From: Flammeovirgaceae bacterium
GTDB taxonomy: Bacteria; Bacteroidota; Bacteroidia; Cytophagales; Cyclobacteriaceae
NCBI GenBank assembly: GCA_027487845.1
Contig: JAIYCV010000042.1
Span: forward strand, 372,001-436,000
DNA: 64,000 nt
Direction: 5' to 3'
Shown here: piece after piece, positions 22,878 through 31,287 of the stretch
Layout: the number at the start of each line of letters is the position of its first letter
Position numbering within the stretch: position 1 is the first letter of the stretch
Translations under genes and position numbers: made by a program
The notes under the pieces: model-generated
The model's input: the letters and a program-made list of their open reading frames with translations, nothing else
Database searches by the model: none
Told to the model about the DNA's origin: nothing

Positions 22878-25679
22878 GTGGCTGAAGAGAAACTAATTAG
22901 GTTAGGGCAAGCATCAAGAAAACTCAATGTTGGTCATAACACCATTTTGGAATTTTTAGCCAAAAAGGGCTCAATCGTTGAAAACAATCCGAATGCTAAG
23001 CTTACTCCTGAGCAATATTCGATGCTTGCGAAAGAATATGCTTCGTCCGCTTCAGAAAAATTGGAGGCGTCTAGTCTCACTATTGGAACAAAACACGCAG
23101 AACCTGCAGCTCCTCAGGTAGAGCCCGAAGTGCATCGAAAAAAAGTTGAGGAAGAGGATCGGATAATGATTAAAAACCTTGGTTCAAAAGAGATCAAAGC
23201 CAAGGAAGAAATCAAAAAAGAAGAAGTTAAGATTGAAAAGACGGAGAAAGTAGAGGTTGAAAAACCAAAGCTTGAAGGCTTTAAAGTGCTGGGCAAAATC
23301 GAACTCGACAAAAAGAAAACGGTTGTCGCAGAGCCAGCGCCCGTTATTCAAGAACCGCCTGTTGAGAAAAAAGAAGTAGAAGAAAAAGAAATAATAACAC
23401 CAGCTGCCGAGAAAGAGACGGCAAGCAAAATAGAGATAACGCAAGTCATTGAAGTTCCCGCACCTGCGGTTGTGGAAAAGGCGCCAGAGCAAGAGTTGAT
23501 AAAAGCAAAAGCGGAAAGGCTCCAGGGCCTTAAGGTGGTGGATCGGATTGAACTTCCTTCTGAAAAAAAGAAAGAACAACCCATTGCCTCCTCAGATCCA
23601 AGAAGCGAAGCTCAGAAAAAACGGCCTCGGAAAAGGCTTCCGCCAACTCCAGGTCCCAATCAAGGATCAGGAAATAGCGGACCGAATCGACCTTATCAGT
23701 CGGGAGGAAATCAATCAGGTGTGGGTACACCTCATAAAAGGCCTCTGCCTTCACGGACACCGAAAGCGGAGCCAACGGAAAAAGAAATTCAAGATCAAAT
23801 AAAAGCTACGCTGGCTAAATTAAGCGGTGGCAGTAAGAAATTTACGGGGGCAAAATACAGAAGAGAAAAACGCCAGGCCAACTCCGATGCCGAGGAAGAA
23901 CGTTTTCAACAGGAACAAGAAGATTCTAAAACATTAAAAGTAACTGAATTCATTTCTGCCAATGATTTGGCTTCGATGATGGATATCTCAGTAAACGATG
24001 TAATATCTGCTTGTTTAGGTCTGGGAATGTTCGTGTCTATCAATCAACGATTGGACGCTGAAGCGATCACTGTTATTGCGAGCGAATTTGGTTATGAAGT
24101 TCAATTCACTAATACAGAAGATGAGAATTTAGTTGAAGAAGTTGCCGATACCGAAGAAGAACTGCTGGCACGTGCGCCTATTGTAACTATAATGGGGCAT
24201 GTTGACCACGGCAAAACCTCCTTATTGGATTATATCCGTAATACCAAAGTGGTAGCTTCTGAAGCGGGTGGTATCACGCAGCACATTGGCGCATATGATG
24301 TAATGACCAAAAGTGGCCACAAGATTGCATTCCTTGATACACCTGGCCACGAGGCCTTTACCGCTATGCGTGCCCGGGGTGCCAAGTTAACTGATATAGC
24401 CATTATTGTTGTAGCTGCTGACGATGACGTAATGCCTCAAACAAAAGAGGCAATTAACCACGCGCAAGTGGCTGGCGTTCCTATTGTGATCGCCATCAAC
24501 AAAGTGGACAAAGCCACTGCTAATCCTGATCGAATTAGAGAAGGGTTATCGAAAATAAATGTGTTAGTTGAAGAGTGGGGAGGTAAATATCAATGTCAAG
24601 AAATATCCGCGAAAAGCGGAAAAGGAATTGACGACCTGCTTGAAAAGGTATTGCTAGAAGCTGAGATTCTAGATCTAAAAGCAAATCCAGACAAAGCCGC
24701 CTCTGGTTCGATCATTGAAGCTTCACTTGACAAGGGAAGAGGATATGTAGCCACCATTATGGTGCAAACGGGCACGTTAGAAGTTGGCAATATATTATTG
24801 GCCGGCTCAAACTACGGGCGCGTAAAAGCCATGTTTGACGATACTGGTAAAAAGGTGAATAAAGTTGGGCCATCCACACCTGTGGTGGTGCTGGGTTTAG
24901 ATGGCGCGCCACAAGCAGGTGAGAAGTTTTCTGTGATGGAAACCGATCGTGAAGCCCGTGAAATTGCTACCAAACGCGGCCAGATAATGCGCGAGCAAAG
25001 CATCCGCACTAAAAAGCATATCACCTTGGATGAAATTGGAAGGCGCTTGGCCATTGGTTCGTTCAAACAATTGAATGTAATTGTGAAGGGAGACGTGGAT
25101 GGATCTGTTGAAGCCTTATCTGATTCATTATTGAAACTTTCTACTCCAAAAATACAAGTTAGCATTATCCATAAGGGTGTTGGACAGATTTCTGAATCAG
25201 ATGTGTTGCTGGCTTCTGCTTCAGATGCCGTTGTCATTGGTTTCCAAGTTAGGCCGTCACCTAGTGCCCGTAGGCTTGCCGATAATGAAGAAATTGAAAT
25301 CCGCCTTTACTCTATCATCTATGACGCTATCAACGATGTGAAAGGCGCTATGGAGGGCATGCTTGAGAAAGAGATGGAAGAAGTGATTGTAGGGAATGCC
25401 GAAATACGTGAAATATTCAAAATCACGAAAGTGGGTACAGTCGCAGGTTGTATGGTAACTGATGGTTATATTAAGCGAACCAACCCGATTCGTTTAATTC
25501 GCGATGGTATTGTGGTTTATACTGGTGAGATGACTGCTTTAAAAAGATTTAAGGACGATGCTTCGGAAGTGCGCTCAGGATTTGACTGCGGTATCAGCAT
25601 AAAGAGTTTTAACGATATGCAGATTGGAGATGTGATAGAGAGTTACGAGAACCGCGAGGTTAAAAAGATAGGCGGATAG
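22878..25679 (+). CDS. infB: Translation initiation factor IF-2
   Basis: This 933-residue GTPase positions fMet-tRNA on the 30S subunit. Residues 1-50 form the IF2_N-like motif ([21 protein letters not shown]). About 60-330 is a long, charged, Lys/Glu/Pro-rich linker. The G domain starts about 435 (G1 [13 protein letters not shown]2 GGITQHIG, G3 DTPGHEAF, G4 NKVD). Domains II-IV follow, ending [17 protein letters not shown]. The start is GTG (22878), right for the family N-terminus MAEEK. A 116-nt gap separates it from nusA and may hold a secondary promoter, but no exact -7 box is seen there. Confidence 0.98.
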
Positions 25680-25715: not shown

Positions 25716-26549
25716 ATGGAAAAAAAAATAGTTCGTGTTGGAAATATAGAATGCGGAAGTAAAGAGTTGTTTCTTATCTCAGGTCCGTGCGTGATAGAGG
25801 AAGAAAGCATTATGATGAAAACGGCTGAGAAGCTTAAAGAAGTTTCTGAGAAGTTAAAGATCAAAGTCATTTATAAATCGTCTTATCAAAAAGACAATAG
25901 AAGTAACCTGAGTTATTATACAGGGCCAGGCATTACAAAAGGTATTGCTTTACTTGCTAAGGTGAAAGAACAATTTGGGTTTCCTGTTCTTACAGACATT
26001 CATTATCCCAGCCAAGTAACGGAAGTAGCTACGGTTGTAGACGTACTTCAAATTCCAGCCTATTTGTGTATGCAAACTGATCTGATGGTGGCAGCTGCAA
26101 AATCAGGAAGAGTGGTGAACATTAAGCATGGCCAGTTCCTCGCTCCAGAAAATATGAAACGCCCTGTTGGAAAATGTGTTGATTCTGGCAACGATCAAAT
26201 TATTTTAACAGAACGCGGTTTTACGTTTGGTTATAACGACCTAGTGGTTGATCCAAGAAGTTTTTACCACATGAACAAAACCGGCTACCCTGTGGTGTTT
26301 GATATCACCCATTCAATTCGAAAGTATGGAATTCCAAGCGCAGACTCTAAAGGTGGTGCCCGGGAATTCTTACCCGTTCTTTCAAGGGCTGGAGTTGCGG
26401 CAGGTGTGGATGGCGTGTTTATCGAAACCCATCCTGATCCTGAAAAAGCGTTGTGCGATGCAGCTAGTCAATTATCTGTTTACGAATTAGAAGAATTTTT
26501 GAAACCCTTGATAGAAATTCATAACATTGAAGTAAGTACAAGAAAATAA
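25716..26549 (+). CDS. kdsA: 3-deoxy-8-phosphooctulonate synthase (metal-dependent type)
   Basis: This 277-residue enzyme condenses arabinose-5-phosphate with phosphoenolpyruvate to Kdo-8-phosphate for LPS inner core. Motifs are FLISGPCVIEEES, YKSSYQKDNRSNL, GPGITKGIALL and LTDIHYPSQ, then IKHGQFLAPENM, ERGFTFGYNDLVVDPR and FDITHSIRKYG. The Cys25 in GPCVIE, with the later His and Glu (THSI, FIETHPDP), marks the metal-dependent KdsA class; the metal-independent enterobacterial type has Asn there. It begins 36 nt after infB and is followed at 23 nt by the aldolase/CBS gene and then a kdsC-like gene. Confidence 0.95.
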   Translation: MEKKIVRVGNIECGSKELFLISGPCVIEEESIMMKTAEKLKEVSEKLKIKVIYKSSYQKDNRSNLSYYTGPGITKGIALLAKVKEQFGFPVLTDIHYPSQVTEVATVVDVLQIPAYLCMQTDLMVAAAKSGRVVNIKHGQFLAPENMKRPVGKCVDSGNDQIILTERGFTFGYNDLVVDPRSFYHMNKTGYPVVFDITHSIRKYGIPSADSKGGAREFLPVLSRAGVAAGVDGVFIETHPDPEKALCDAASQLSVYELEEFLKPLIEIHNIEVSTRK

Positions 26550-26572
26550 TTTATTACAGTCAATTACGCCCT

Positions 26573-27586
26573 ATGGAATTATACCTCGACTCAGCGGATC
26601 TTAAAGAAATAGAAGAAGCTTTCAAATTAGGCTTCTTGAATGGCCTCACTACAACGCCTACGTTCATGCATCGCGGTGGAGTTACCGATATTGATGGTCT
26701 TATTTTGAAGCTGGCTAAGATTGTACCGGTACTGCAAATAGAAGCGTTAGGAAATTCTGCTGAAGAAGTAGTGGCAGAAGCAAAAAGACAATTGGATTTA
26801 GGGCTCGATCCTAAAAAGACCGTTTTTAAAATTCCTGTTTCATTGGAAGGAGTTCGCGCCTGCCATATGCTTAGAAAGCAAGATCTATTAGTAAATGTTC
26901 ACCTTGTTTATACCCTGCAGCAAGCTTACATGGCAATGCAAGCAGGCGCTACCTACGTTTGCCCGCTTGTAGGTCGTTTGCAAGACCAAGGGCATGATGC
27001 ACTTGAGCTGGTGAATCAATGCGTGGATGCAGTAGAAACCTATGGTTATGATACAAAAGTAATGTTCTCTTCGGTACGACACGCGGAACACGTTCGCAAT
27101 GCCATTACGCTTGGCGTGCACACCATCACAGCTCCCTGGAAAGTATTAAAGGCATTGACGGAAAATAACTTTACAGCACTTGGCACACAACAATTCGTAG
27201 AGCACACTCGGCTTTTAACAACAAAAGTGAAAGATGTAATAAAGCCGATCAATCCCATCGTAAGTGCTGACCTTTCAGTAACCGATGCGCTTATTAAGAT
27301 GACTGAATTTGGTTTCGGAAGTGTAGGTGTTGTGAACTCAACGGGGTCTGTAATTGGCGTGTTTACCGATGGCGATCTTAGGAGAAAGCTTCAGGAAAAG
27401 GGCCGTGAAGTATTGGCTCTACCACTTAGTTCTTTTTCTTACAAAGCACCCATAACAATTGAAGCTACCGCTATCTTAAATGATGCTGCTGATATCTTTA
27501 AGAAAACAAAGGTAGATACCATTTTAGTGACCGATAACGGCAAGCCCGTTGGGATGTTGGATATTCAGGATTTGAAAGAAGAATAA
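26573..27586 (+). CDS. Transaldolase/fructose-6-phosphate-aldolase-like domain fused to a KdsD-type CBS pair
   Basis: This 337-residue protein is a fusion. Residues 1-215 resemble fructose-6-phosphate aldolase (FSA): MELYLDSADL with Asp6, FKIPVSLEGVRA with the Schiff-base Lys86, a TIM-barrel repeat pattern and VMFSSVRHAEHV with the conserved Ser167. Residues about 226-337 are two CBS motifs; SVIGVFTDGDLRRKL is the signature CBS phrase of KdsD/KpsF arabinose-5-phosphate isomerases. The usual TTNP motif reads TTTP (Asn28 to Thr). The positions matching FSA Thr109, Ala129 and Tyr131 are His110, Cys130 and Leu132, so the active site differs from FSA. Its place between kdsA and a kdsC-like gene suggests a role in supplying or regulating arabinose-5-phosphate. 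That function is inference; another sugar-phosphate aldol reaction is possible. Confidence 0.85.
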   Translation: MELYLDSADLKEIEEAFKLGFLNGLTTTPTFMHRGGVTDIDGLILKLAKIVPVLQIEALGNSAEEVVAEAKRQLDLGLDPKKTVFKIPVSLEGVRACHMLRKQDLLVNVHLVYTLQQAYMAMQAGATYVCPLVGRLQDQGHDALELVNQCVDAVETYGYDTKVMFSSVRHAEHVRNAITLGVHTITAPWKVLKALTENNFTALGTQQFVEHTRLLTTKVKDVIKPINPIVSADLSVTDALIKMTEFGFGSVGVVNSTGSVIGVFTDGDLRRKLQEKGREVLALPLSSFSYKAPITIEATAILNDAADIFKKTKVDTILVTDNGKPVGMLDIQDLKEE

Positions 27587-27588
27587 AC

Positions 27589-28284
27589 TTGGCGCTTACA
27601 ACAATCGAAAAATTATTCGCAGCTAAAGGTGGAGCATTTCTTGTTTCACCTTTTTCTTTGCAGCACAAGCTATCAAAAGCAAAAGCTTTTATTTTTGACT
27701 GGGATGGTGTCTTTAATTCGGGCACCAAAGGTGTTGGCCTCACTAGCAGTTTTAGCGAACCAGATGCAATGGGCACTAATCTACTTAGATTTAGTCATTG
27801 GTTACTGCGTGGCAGTTTACCAACCGTGGCCATCATCACAGGCGAAGCGAATGAATCAGCGATAAGCTTAGCCACAAGAGAGCATTTTACATCCATCTAC
27901 ACAAAAGCGAAAAATAAGATCGAATCGTTGCATCACTTTCTTGAAACCAATCACTTAACCGCTGAGGAAGTTGTTTTTATTTTTGATGACGTGTTGGACT
28001 TGGGCATGGCCAAAAAATGTGGGGTAACGATTCAGATACATAGAAATGCAAGCCCACTGCTCAACGATTTTATCCGCAAAGAAAGCCTTGCTGATTACGT
28101 TACGGCCAATGAAGGTGGCCAACATGCGGTGCGAGAGGTCTGCGAGTTAATCATTGGATTGAGAGGAAATTATTCTGAAACGGTTACCCATAGACTTGAA
28201 TTTTCATCAGAGTACCAAACCTATTTGACTTCGCGCCAAGCGGTTGATACGCTCGTATTCGCAGGTGGGGTTAAAATTCAATAA
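27589..28284 (+). CDS. KdsC-like HAD-superfamily phosphatase
   Basis: This 231-residue protein has HAD motif I FIFDWDGVFNSG (Asp nucleophile and DxD), motif II VAIITGEANES (the KdsC TG phrase), motif III Lys in KAKNKIESL and motif IV FIFDDVLDLGMAKKCG. It ends with GGQHAVREVCELI, matching the diagnostic C-terminus of KdsC (GGRGAVREVC). KdsC hydrolyses Kdo-8-phosphate to Kdo. It is longer than typical KdsC (about 170-190 residues), with about 25 extra N-terminal and about 45 extra C-terminal residues and a changed specificity loop. The substrate could therefore be a related sugar acid phosphate. It starts with TTG 2 nt after the aldolase stop and is probably co-translated. Confidence 0.87.
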   Translation: MALTTIEKLFAAKGGAFLVSPFSLQHKLSKAKAFIFDWDGVFNSGTKGVGLTSSFSEPDAMGTNLLRFSHWLLRGSLPTVAIITGEANESAISLATREHFTSIYTKAKNKIESLHHFLETNHLTAEEVVFIFDDVLDLGMAKKCGVTIQIHRNASPLLNDFIRKESLADYVTANEGGQHAVREVCELIIGLRGNYSETVTHRLEFSSEYQTYLTSRQAVDTLVFAGGVKIQ

Positions 28285-28397: not shown

Positions 28398-31287
28398 TCA
28401 AACCTTCTTTTTTGTTCTCTTCACTTTTTCTTTGGTGAACAAATCGGCTGTATATTTCTCATAGAGTTCAAATAGGAATTCCATGCGCTTTGCTTCGGAA
28501 GAAAATGGTAGGGGGCGATAGCAACTGTCAACAAACTTATCTAACTCTTGATGGGCGTGAACCAAATCGGTTGGCATAGTGAGTGGATCATACAAGTCGG
28601 CCAATGAGCTATCAGGATAACGCTCACGCACTTTTAATACTTGCTGTGCTAATTTTTCAACTCCTTGAATTTTTTGCTTCGGTAAATCTTGCGGCCACGG
28701 GAAGTTATTGTAAACTATATCCTTAGAATAACGAAAATCACTTTTCAATCTACCGCAAACGTTACGAACCCAAGTCATGTGCATTTCGGAACTAAGAATG
28801 CCAAAGTGAAATAGTGTAGTCTTTGGAATTGCAAAACAAGAATCACTGACAATGAAGTTTTTTGTAAAGAAGCCAAAAGGTACGTACTTTCTATTCTCTG
28901 ATGAATGACGTGGAATCAGTATAAAATCCGACTCTGGTTGTCTGATTTCACCAAATAGCGTTGGTGTTTCAGCGATTTTTCTTGTCGCTGCACGTGCGCT
29001 ATTCAAACGATATTTTTTAACATGCTCAACTCTAACAATTACTGCTGGCAGCTTCTTAATGTCTGATGGATTTGCATTCTTGAGCCATAAACACCACCTA
29101 TTATCACCATTTAAAAACTCTTTGGCACTAAGAACGGGGAAAAAATACTTTTTTGAATTGGGCTCAGTTTCTATAAAATCATTTTTTTCTTCCTCTGTAA
29201 ATAAAAAATTGCCATCATCATTGGGCATATTGCCAAAAGAAATTTGGGGGACTTTGCAAATAGGATTGGACTTCTTCTCGATCAGTAAGTCTTTGGCATC
29301 AACCAAATAAGGGTTAATATTTTTAGCCTTAATCTCTTGTGCCTCGCCTTTAATGTCTTCGTATTCAAAAATGCTTTTGTTTGGAGTGTCAAAACTTGCA
29401 AAGCCTATGATTACGCAATACACGGCTGCGTTTCCTTTCGCTTCATTACTCCATTTAAAGGTGCGGTGTGCAAAATGAATTTTGATGTTGTACTTATGCA
29501 ACATCTGCCCCCACAAAATACTTGTCTGCTCGCCTTGCACGATTGAATTGGTTGACACAAACGCAACTTTGGTACGTGTGCCTTGAATATATTTTGCGGC
29601 CTTTATATACCAAGCAGTTACATAGTCTAAAACGCCACTTCCTTGCACATGGTCAAATTCCCTTACTACCGAATCGCGTTGAGATTGGGTCATTATTTTA
29701 GAACCAATAAAAGGTGGGTTGCCTATGATATAATCAAACTTGCTTTCCTCGGCCACTGCTGGGCTTTTTCCCTTGTGGATTTCAATGGTTTCAGTTTGTA
29801 CGTTTAGTGTTTTATACTCGGCAGTTGGCTCTTCTACTAAAAATATATTGGCATGTTTGGCAATGATATTTATCGTGTTCACTGGGTTCAATAAACTTTG
29901 CCAATCCGTTGTCAAGGCATTGCCATGAATAATTTTAGCCGCTTTTTTCAATGGCAAACGCACAAAGTATTGACCAAACTCATTACTGATTGCCATGTTC
30001 ATTTGATGATCTATCAGCCACATGGCTACTTCGGCTATTCGCGCGGGGAACTCTTCGTACTCAATGCCGTGCATCATGTCAACGTCCAGCAAAATAATTT
30101 CGCGCACGTCTAACACACCCGTTCCGCTTTTTATTCAACGCTCTCAATACTTCAATCTCCAAAAGGCGTAGTTCGCGATACGTTATTACCAAGAAGTTAC
30201 CACAACCACACGCTGGATCGAGAAATTTTAATTGACTCAGTTTCTTATGAAATTCAGGTAGCTTATTCTTATTGGTTTTAATCGTATCAAACTCCTGCCA
30301 AAGTTCATCGAGGAATAACGGCTTTATAAGTTTGAGTATGTTTTTTTCGCTTGTATAGTGAGCACCTAAATTTCTCCGCTCTGTGGGGTTCATCACGCTT
30401 TGAAACATAGAACCAAAAATGGCGGGGGATATTTTACTCCAATCTAGATAACAACATTCTAATAGGCTTTGCCTCATCTTAGAATCAAAGCTTGCACTTG
30501 GCAACATTTCTTCAAACAATTTTCCGTTTACGTAAGGAAAAGCGTTAAGCTGTTCATCAAGATTTTTAAATCTCTTTTCAATTGGGGTATTTAGAACTTG
30601 AAATAGTTCCTGAAGTTTAGCCGCTAAGTCGCTTCCATCCTCTGAGGTACGTTGCTCAACGAATTCCTGAAATTGCTGCTTCTCAAATATGGTGGTGTCT
30701 TCGGCAAAGAGTAAAAACAGAATGCGGACAAGGTAGATTTCTAATGGATGTCCTTCATAACCGATTTCTTTTAGTCGGTCATGCAGCTTACCCATTAACT
30801 CTGCTGCCTTTATATTTACAGGGTCTTGCTCTTTGTATGTGCGCTTTTGATAACCTGCTATAAAGCCAAAGTGTTGAATATTGTTAACAAAATCCTTTAG
30901 TTTGAATTCGATGACTTTTGTTTCTTCAAGGTCGTGTAGCCTTATTATGTCAAAGTCAGATACAAGAATGTACTTGGGTAGTTCATGTTGCTTGATTCCA
31001 TACAGATAGTCTTTTGCTTGCGTGAATGCCTTGTCGAGGTTTTTGCCGCGACTTTTCATTTCTATTACCAAAGTGCCTTTCCAAAATAGATCTATATAGC
31101 CATCGTGCTCGTCAAGTTTCATTACCCTTTCCTCAAAGGTTGCCACCTTCTTGCGGCTTACTCAAAATACATTAAAGAACTCTACTAAAAATGGCTTTGC
31201 ATCTGCTTCTTCATTTTGAGTGTTTGCCCATTCCTTCGAGAATTTTAGTGCTCTATCTTTTATCTCATTCCAGCTTAATGCCGCCAT
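28398..31287 (-). pseudogene. MmeI-type (type IIG/IIL) restriction-methyltransferase, broken by a nonsense codon and a frameshift
   Basis: The intact reading starts at ATG 31287 (MAALSWNEIKDRALKFSKEW). It hits an in-frame TGA at 31162-31164, inside FFNVF-stop-VSRKKVATFEERV, where MmeI-like proteins normally continue with Gly (GGA would differ by one base). It then runs 30079-31146 with a nuclease phrase (IDLFWKGTLVIEMKSRG, EXK-type) and methylase motif I (FLDPACGCGNFL). The frame is lost at an A5 run (plus 30128-30132). Removing one base joins ALNK to SGTGVLDVREIILL, restoring the second half (28398-30116) with motif IV NPPFIGSK and the target-recognition region. The span is 3 x 963 + 1 nt, consistent with one inserted base. 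The repaired protein would be about 962 residues with one internal stop codon. It has probably lost function unless the errors lie in the assembly. Confidence 0.88.

Follow-up and report, generated by a model that had tools for sequence, protein, structure and literature searches.

Synthesis of 3-deoxy-D-manno-octulosonate (Kdo) is textbook Gram-negative biochemistry, and its arabinose-5-phosphate (A5P) step is assigned to KdsD-type SIS isomerases. Which enzyme, then, makes A5P where the slot of kdsD, which in E. coli lies before kdsC, is filled by an aldolase? We analyzed a 64,000-nucleotide (nt) stretch of DNA, the window, from a Flammeovirgaceae bacterium (assembly GCA_027487845.1, contig JAIYCV010000042.1, positions 372,001 to 436,000), in which the gene between kdsA and a kdsC-like phosphatase gene encodes a transaldolase/FSA-fold barrel fused to a CBS pair (the fusion). 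Comparison of its sequence and distribution with those of KdsD makes it very likely that the fusion is an A5P source replacing KdsD. It would serve a variant Kdo pathway as a non-orthologous KdsD replacement, inherited with its own KdsA. More broadly, a class I aldolase scaffold probably became a dedicated, CBS-regulated A5P enzyme, working by aldol addition or by epimerization of ribose-5-phosphate (R5P), and displaced KdsD, along with a co-adapted KdsA, repeatedly in Bacteroidota.

The initial annotation, made from the nucleotide sequence, had described a kdsA / FSA-like aldolase-CBS fusion / kdsC-like gene order with gaps of 23 and 2 nt, and the coordinates of the open reading frames (ORFs), all three on the forward strand, bear this out (23 nt between kdsA and the fusion gene, 2 nt between the latter and the KdsC-like gene). 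Profile searches agreed with its statement that the SIS domain is absent and an aldolase barrel stands in its place. The TAL_FSA profile PF00923 matched residues 3-202 of the fusion with 118 bits, and TIGR00875 (FSA/TalC) matched residues 1-210 with 151.8 bits, under its cut-off of 245.95. The C-terminus held two PF00571 CBS stretches; a full-length TIGR00393 (KpsF/GutQ) match with the SIS isomerase domain was not found, and this profile aligned only through its positions 151-267 with protein residues 213-329 (64.6 bits against a 203.7-bit cut-off). An AlphaFold2 model, computed with 36 window and locus sequences as input, had a mean per-residue confidence (pLDDT) of 90.7 and a predicted TM-score (pTM) of 0.67, and its best Foldseek matches were TalC-type transaldolase structures, with a target-normalized TM-score of ~0.9 over the barrel. 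Alignment, model and Foldseek results thus agreed on a (beta/alpha)8 barrel with a Schiff-base lysine and catalytic Asp and Glu; Lys86, which had been proposed as the Schiff-base residue, aligned with K132 of E. coli TalB and K85 of FsaA.

The CBS pair was of the KdsD kind. The predicted GVFTDGDLRR motif was located at residues 262-271, and the best PDB and NCBIfam matches were both KdsD/KpsF-type (PDB 4o9k, 'Arabinose 5-phosphate isomerase', at 1.8e-19; next match 1.7e-11). In a tree, the CBS pairs of the fusion and of KdsD clustered (96/92) against two own-genome outgroups, whose very long branches make the rooting weak. This grouping suggests that the fusion CBS pair may have the same ligand as that of KdsD; CMP-Kdo is bound in KdsD CBS structures. 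The protein resembles KdsD/KpsF/GutQ in its homologous CBS pair with a GVFTDGDLRR-type motif, in its slot beside kdsC and in a near-complementary distribution among KdsA genomes, but it has a Schiff-base aldolase barrel instead of the SIS isomerase domain. With FSA/TalC it has in common the fold (target-normalized TM-score ~0.9), Lys86, Asp6, Glu57, Asn108, Arg135, Ser167 and Arg169; it differs in its fused CBS pair, in its TIGR00875 score and in four site residues (below), and the window genome carries a separate plain TalC besides it. As judged from sequence, the fusion belongs neither to KdsD, since it has no SIS domain, nor to FSA/TalC proper, since it departs from the TIGR00875 cut-off and the four site residues, yet it would work partly like both.

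A complete KdsD elsewhere in the genome had been named in advance as the finding that would speak against replacement. None was found in the window genome (4.55 Mb, scored 100% complete), where TIGR00393 matched CBS sequences and, weakly and in part, one SIS domain; SIS scans located four places, two in a 627-aa ORF of GlmS size, one in a 206-aa ORF and one in a 269-aa ORF, and a KdsD elsewhere in this genome was thereby ruled out. We then drew 158 genomes of the class and scored KdsD by the TIGR00393 cut-off, full-length fusions at E <=1e-42 and KdsA at E <=1e-60. KdsD was over the cut-off in 87, a full-length fusion was present in 29 and KdsA in 116. Among the 116 KdsA genomes, 92 had a KdsD-type SIS protein (above the TIGR00393 cut-off in 84, full length but slightly under it in 2, represented by the SIS half only in 6) and 24 had the fusion; no genome had both or lacked both (Fisher 2e-25, with no correction for kinship). 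Complementarity across these genomes, like the result in the window genome, supports the proposal that the fusion stands in for KdsD. Both states occurred within each of the families f1, f40, f46 and f68, and the switch therefore probably took place more than once. A swap between KdsD and the fusion in many Bacteroidota is well supported by this genome comparison. When 178 genomes were drawn from across the phylum, the full-length fusions among the matches listed were those of the window genome (G000), G146 and G091; the others were plain TalC. As a separate observation, 42 of the 158 class genomes had no KdsA match at E 1e-60, and 34 of these had neither KdsD nor the fusion.

A search of genome_contigs, evaluated for the best 80 of 225 relatives, returned full-length fusions at all 80 loci (residues 1 to 334 or beyond, 72-93% identity), which rules out chance read-through or assembly error as their source. 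Seventy-eight came from records labelled Bacteroidota or a subgroup of it, one from 'Saccharibacteria' and one from a plain 'bacterium'; the fusion protein is conserved within Bacteroidota. None of 76 matching records in a 'plasmids' search covered 80% of the fusion query in one place, and the 10 matches listed there aligned to its aldolase part only. Within the fetched flanks, a KdsC-like gene was found at 68/80 loci (67/80 by a second method), kdsA at 51/80 and kdsB at 10/80. The kdsA gene lay <150 nt upstream of the fusion gene in 37 loci, and the KdsC-like gene <150 nt downstream in 54. An aminotransferase gene and an iron-type alcohol dehydrogenase gene, which we take to be KdnA-like and KdnB-like, each occurred at 27/80 loci; at 26 they occurred together, in each case with kdsA, and 25 of these 26 were ordered kdnA-kdnB-kdsA-fusion-kdsC. 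The best solved relative of the former was 5k8b, '8-amino-3,8-dideoxy-alpha-D-manno-octulosonate transaminase' (432 bits; next 169), and of the latter 5k8c, '3-deoxy-alpha-D-manno-octulosonate 8-oxidase' (420 bits; then 3rf7 with 406, then 88). At E <=1e-60, KdnB-like genes were present in 14 of 25 genomes with a catalytic fusion, in none of the 4 genomes of family f38 with a degenerate fusion (below) and in 3 of 129 other class genomes; the same search found none in the window genome. Fusion loci are thus grouped as in Kdo and 8-amino-Kdo clusters, with kdsA, a kdsC-like gene and sometimes kdsB and kdnA-kdnB, but differ from them by an aldolase-CBS protein at the proposed A5P-forming step and by a distinct KdsA clade.

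From the anatomy, gene order, distribution and residues read in these sequences, we infer the following reaction, substrates and regulation. As in a class I aldolase, Lys86 would bind a two-carbon unit, glycolaldehyde, as a Schiff base, and the resulting enamine would attack glyceraldehyde-3-phosphate (G3P), held by Arg135, Arg169 and Ser167, to give A5P. The neighboring KdsA would condense A5P with phosphoenolpyruvate (PEP), and the KdsC-like phosphatase would release Kdo. The CBS pair, as in KdsD, would probably sense a nucleotide of the pathway, for example CMP-Kdo, and tune the barrel. Our preference for the aldol route rests on the invariant C-C bond machinery: D6, E57, K86, N108, R135, S167 and R169 (D17, E96, K132, N154, R181, S226 and R228 of TalB) were conserved in 105/105 KdsA-type fusions, in an alignment from which the window copies (L001, L085) and second fetches (L150-L154) were excluded and in which the four f38 fusions were set apart. 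Few of the fusion rows were identical (103 distinct of 108). According to excerpts of PMC6298115, E. coli FsaA and FsaB take glycolaldehyde as preferred donor and G3P as preferred acceptor and yield A5P, with a KM of 0.2 mM and a kcat of 16 per s quoted for glycolaldehyde condensation, and the aldol route is therefore credible; excerpts of PMC9947464 note that, for A5P formation by FsaA, the work cited there had reported no KM for glycolaldehyde. We incline, by a slight balance, to accept the aldol mechanism as stated in full. The initial annotation had likewise suggested that A5P may arise by an aldol route; the aldol residues of the fusion are intact, while glycolaldehyde plus G3P is not singled out as the substrate pair, epimerization and isomerization fitting too.

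Several observations weigh against this picture, beginning with the distribution. Genome counts are phylogenetically non-independent. Among 51 further fusion genomes (50 of the returned loci and G091), 3 also carried KdsD over the cut-off, including the isolate Chryseolinea serpens; this set partly overlaps the class draw, since L013 and L012 each carry a fusion identical to that of L093 over 300 residues. Strict mutual exclusion as a general rule is thereby ruled out. One class genome, G247, has a fusion and no KdsA match at E <=1e-60, and the degenerate fusions also lie in four genomes without a KdsA match. The expectation that the fusion co-occurs with loss of KdsD held among the KdsA genomes of the class draw and failed in the three double carriers. 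These three genomes (L265, L266, L267) are possibly transitional states. In each of them KdsD adjoins a RecQ helicase gene (Pfam), and in L265 and L266 it also lies by a mannose-1-phosphate guanylyltransferase-like gene (a nucleotidyl transferase by Pfam in L265, assigned by eye in L266). Outside the 51-genome set, the fusion of L071 was identical over 300 residues to that of L096.

The KdsA sequences count on the same side. In a tree built from the KdsA of 21 fusion genomes (24 have KdsA) and of 30 KdsD/SIS genomes (out of 92), in which the E. coli row was long, the two groups were parted by one branch (support 100/99, length 0.86), and 17 columns discriminated between them. The substitutions A61D, F117Y, R120M, Q205R and R207Y (E. 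coli numbering) and a one-residue insertion after R207 were present in 21/21 fusion genomes and 0/30 KdsD/SIS genomes, so that Ala61 (KANRS loop), Phe117 and Arg120, found in 30/30 KdsD/SIS genomes, were missing from all 21. The substituted positions are taken to lie in substrate loops. Phe112 of N. meningitidis KdsA, described within the A5P pocket in excerpts of PMC6650799, is equated here with E. coli F117 by its offset from the KANRS loop. The remodelled acceptor loops may thus receive an acceptor other than A5P, and the fusion might make another aldose phosphate so that the cluster yields a Kdo-like acid and not Kdo, an alternative that the initial annotation had also raised. The downstream enzyme argues otherwise. 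KdsB was over its cut-off in 28/29 fusion genomes and the WaaA N-domain family was present in 26/29. In a comparison of 20 of the 25 catalytic fusion genomes with 26 chosen KdsD/SIS genomes, the KdsB tree forced at least four label changes between the two states, the KdsB of the window genome was sister to that of G049, a KdsD-bearing member of its family (98/84), and no column separating the states was found. Co-transfer of KdsB, a possible sign of a different product, was not seen in this tree. The KdnA/KdnB-like neighbors, with solved homologs named for manno-octulosonate, also speak for Kdo. We therefore regard a Kdo-like product as very unlikely, with the KdsA loops as the reason for retaining it. 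Because KdsB is inherited vertically without a discriminating column and Kdo 8-oxidase-like genes are neighbors, the simplest reading is that the pathway would still end in Kdo (for some of the genomes, in 8-amino-Kdo), with a co-adapted KdsA. Two fusion genomes without KdsD, G302 and G272 (L242, L243), carry a second KdsA of the KdsD-genome clade, which was placed in no group of the KdsA comparison; it may be a relic, have a second role or reflect a binning mix.

The donor side of the active site raises a further objection. At TalB positions N35, T156, S176 and F178, all 105 KdsA-type fusions had T28, H110, C130 and L132, whereas plain TalC of the same class had N, T, S and F in 9/9 rows, which were hand-chosen and no random sample, and E. 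coli FsaA has A and Y at fusion positions 130 and 132. The Asn28, Thr110, Ser/Ala130 and Phe/Tyr132 of FSA/TalC donor and water sites are therefore absent, and FSA/TalC kinetics should not be assumed for the fusion. We take TalB N35 and S176 to contact the dihydroxyacetone donor at its C1 end, T156 to hold the catalytic water and D17 to accept the proton in C-C cleavage. The barrel would then have retained its aldol engine and phosphate site and rebuilt its donor pocket, in a way that may suit an aldose or glycolaldehyde imine without a C1 hydroxymethyl group. In addition, we know of no sufficient glycolaldehyde source for an aldol route, although glycolaldehyde-forming genes were not searched for.

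Free glycolaldehyde would be unnecessary if the fusion filled the same role by C2 epimerization, with a Schiff base at C1 of R5P, a standard metabolite, leading to A5P through an enamine or through retro-aldol cleavage and re-addition. His110, which replaces the catalytic-water threonine in 105/105 fusions, could be an acid-base residue for this chemistry, and from glycolaldehyde and G3P a TalB F178Y variant reportedly forms A5P as well as R5P (excerpts of PMC9947464), so that the scaffold reaches both C2 epimers. No sugar epimerase of the transaldolase fold is known to us, however, and Asp6, presumably the C-C cleavage base, is strictly kept although direct deprotonation would do without it; we consider epimerization rather unlikely. 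Doubtful to a greater degree is isomerization of ribulose-5-phosphate to A5P through a non-covalent enediol, with Glu57 and His110 as bases. On this reading the fusion would be a one-for-one stand-in for KdsD, in keeping with the kinship of their CBS pairs and with the position that both occupy ahead of the kdsC gene. Against it stands the invariance of Schiff-base Lys86 and of the other tested aldolase residues, and a lysine imine at the ketose C2 would give no free aldose and be chemically awkward.

A further, highly improbable reading makes the fusion an unrelated or regulatory transaldolase and leaves A5P formation to GlmS or some other promiscuous isomerase. Excerpts of PMC11301363 report A5P isomerase activity for GFAT and the complementation of an E. 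coli mutant in A5P isomerase by several eukaryotic GFATs, and the GlmS-sized ORF of the window genome contains two SIS stretches. SIS proteins matched in 14/14 control genomes, however, and GlmS would thus leave unexplained why, in the KdsA genomes of the class draw, the fusion occurs precisely where KdsD does not. The same question is touched by four f38 genomes (G274, G219, G249, G298; L117-L120, also L150-L153), whose divergent fusions (37-42% identity) have lost Arg135 and Arg169 in 4/4 cases and carry R (three fusions) or S (one) in place of Lys86, and still keep the CBS pair, as a regulator might. Against this, all four lacked a KdsA match (E <=1e-60). No kdsA- or kdsC-like sequence was found in the four fetched stretches. 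Decay of the barrel where KdsA is missing suggests that barrel catalysis is tied to the KdsA pathway. The f38 proteins may be either moonlighting regulators or a sign of KdsA replacement. KdsB and WaaA matches were present in all four genomes, so another route to Kdo-8-phosphate may exist in genomes without a KdsA match; G298 also had a SIS-half KdsD match. The f38 fusion genes adjoin an M61-peptidase-like gene, with a phosphodiesterase-like gene beyond it in 3/4 (Pfam checked on L150 and on the peptidase of L153).

The coordinates of the locus are collected in the table. The window kdsA scored above the NCBIfam KdsA equivalog cut-off (347.2 against 314 bits). The KdsC-like protein was far under the KdsC equivalog cut-off (62.6 against 208 bits for NF007019), and a DxD motif (DWD) was found in its sequence. 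By reading of the sequence, an infB-like ORF (22878-25679) lies directly upstream of kdsA. Downstream on the reverse strand, the overlapping ORFs 28398-30116 and 30079-31146 together cover a single MmeI-like restriction-modification protein, the former its N-terminal and the latter its C-terminal domains, with its methyltransferase domain divided between them (Pfam).

Table. Features of the kdsA-fusion-kdsC-like locus, in window coordinates.
Feature	Position	Strand	Basis
kdsA, Kdo-8-phosphate synthase of the fusion-associated distinct clade, 277 aa	25716..26549	+	TIGR01362 347.2 bits; KdsA tree
Transaldolase/FSA-fold + CBS-pair fusion, 337 aa, proposed A5P-forming enzyme	26573..27586	+	profiles, model, distribution
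TAL/FSA (beta/alpha)8 barrel, residues 1-210 of the fusion	26573..27202	+	PF00923, TIGR00875
Codon of Thr28 (TalB N35; transaldolases: Asn)	26654..26656	+	alignment
Codon of Lys86, Schiff-base lysine (TalB K132, FsaA K85)	26828..26830	+	alignment
Codon of His110 (TalB T156; transaldolases: Thr)	26900..26902	+	alignment
Codons of Cys130, Pro131, Leu132 (TalB S176, F178; transaldolases: Ser130, Phe132)	26960..26968	+	alignment
CBS pair, residues 213-334, nearest to the KdsD/KpsF CBS pair	27209..27574	+	PDB 4o9k match, CBS tree
GVFTDGDLRR motif in the CBS pair, residues 262-271	27356..27385	+	sequence
KdsC-like HAD phosphatase, divergent, 231 aa, TTG start	27589..28284	+	NF007019 62.6 bits

Among the literature matches listed, which comprised titles and abstract openings with subscription journals and preprints mostly outside, we recognized no report of a transaldolase-CBS enzyme in the Kdo pathway. 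Excerpts of a 2024 paper (PMC11301363) name at least three prokaryotic D-arabinose routes, none of them aldolase-based. GFAT/GlmS with an A5P isomerase side activity, described in the same excerpts, is likewise a non-KdsD route to A5P, but it is a SIS-type isomerase unlinked to Kdo genes and not an aldolase fusion. Excerpts of PMC9947464 mention, as one option for glycolaldehyde assimilation, the discovery of an A5P aldolase whose affinity for glycolaldehyde is very high, and if our reading is true, the fusion would be a natural, regulated A5P aldolase or epimerase usable in such engineering. KdsD inhibitors would then be ineffective on fusion-bearing Bacteroidota, and the annotation and metabolic models of many members of the phylum would miss an essential enzyme. 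For these bacteria the fusion would represent a new route to an essential lipopolysaccharide precursor, and possibly a new sugar-epimerase chemistry.

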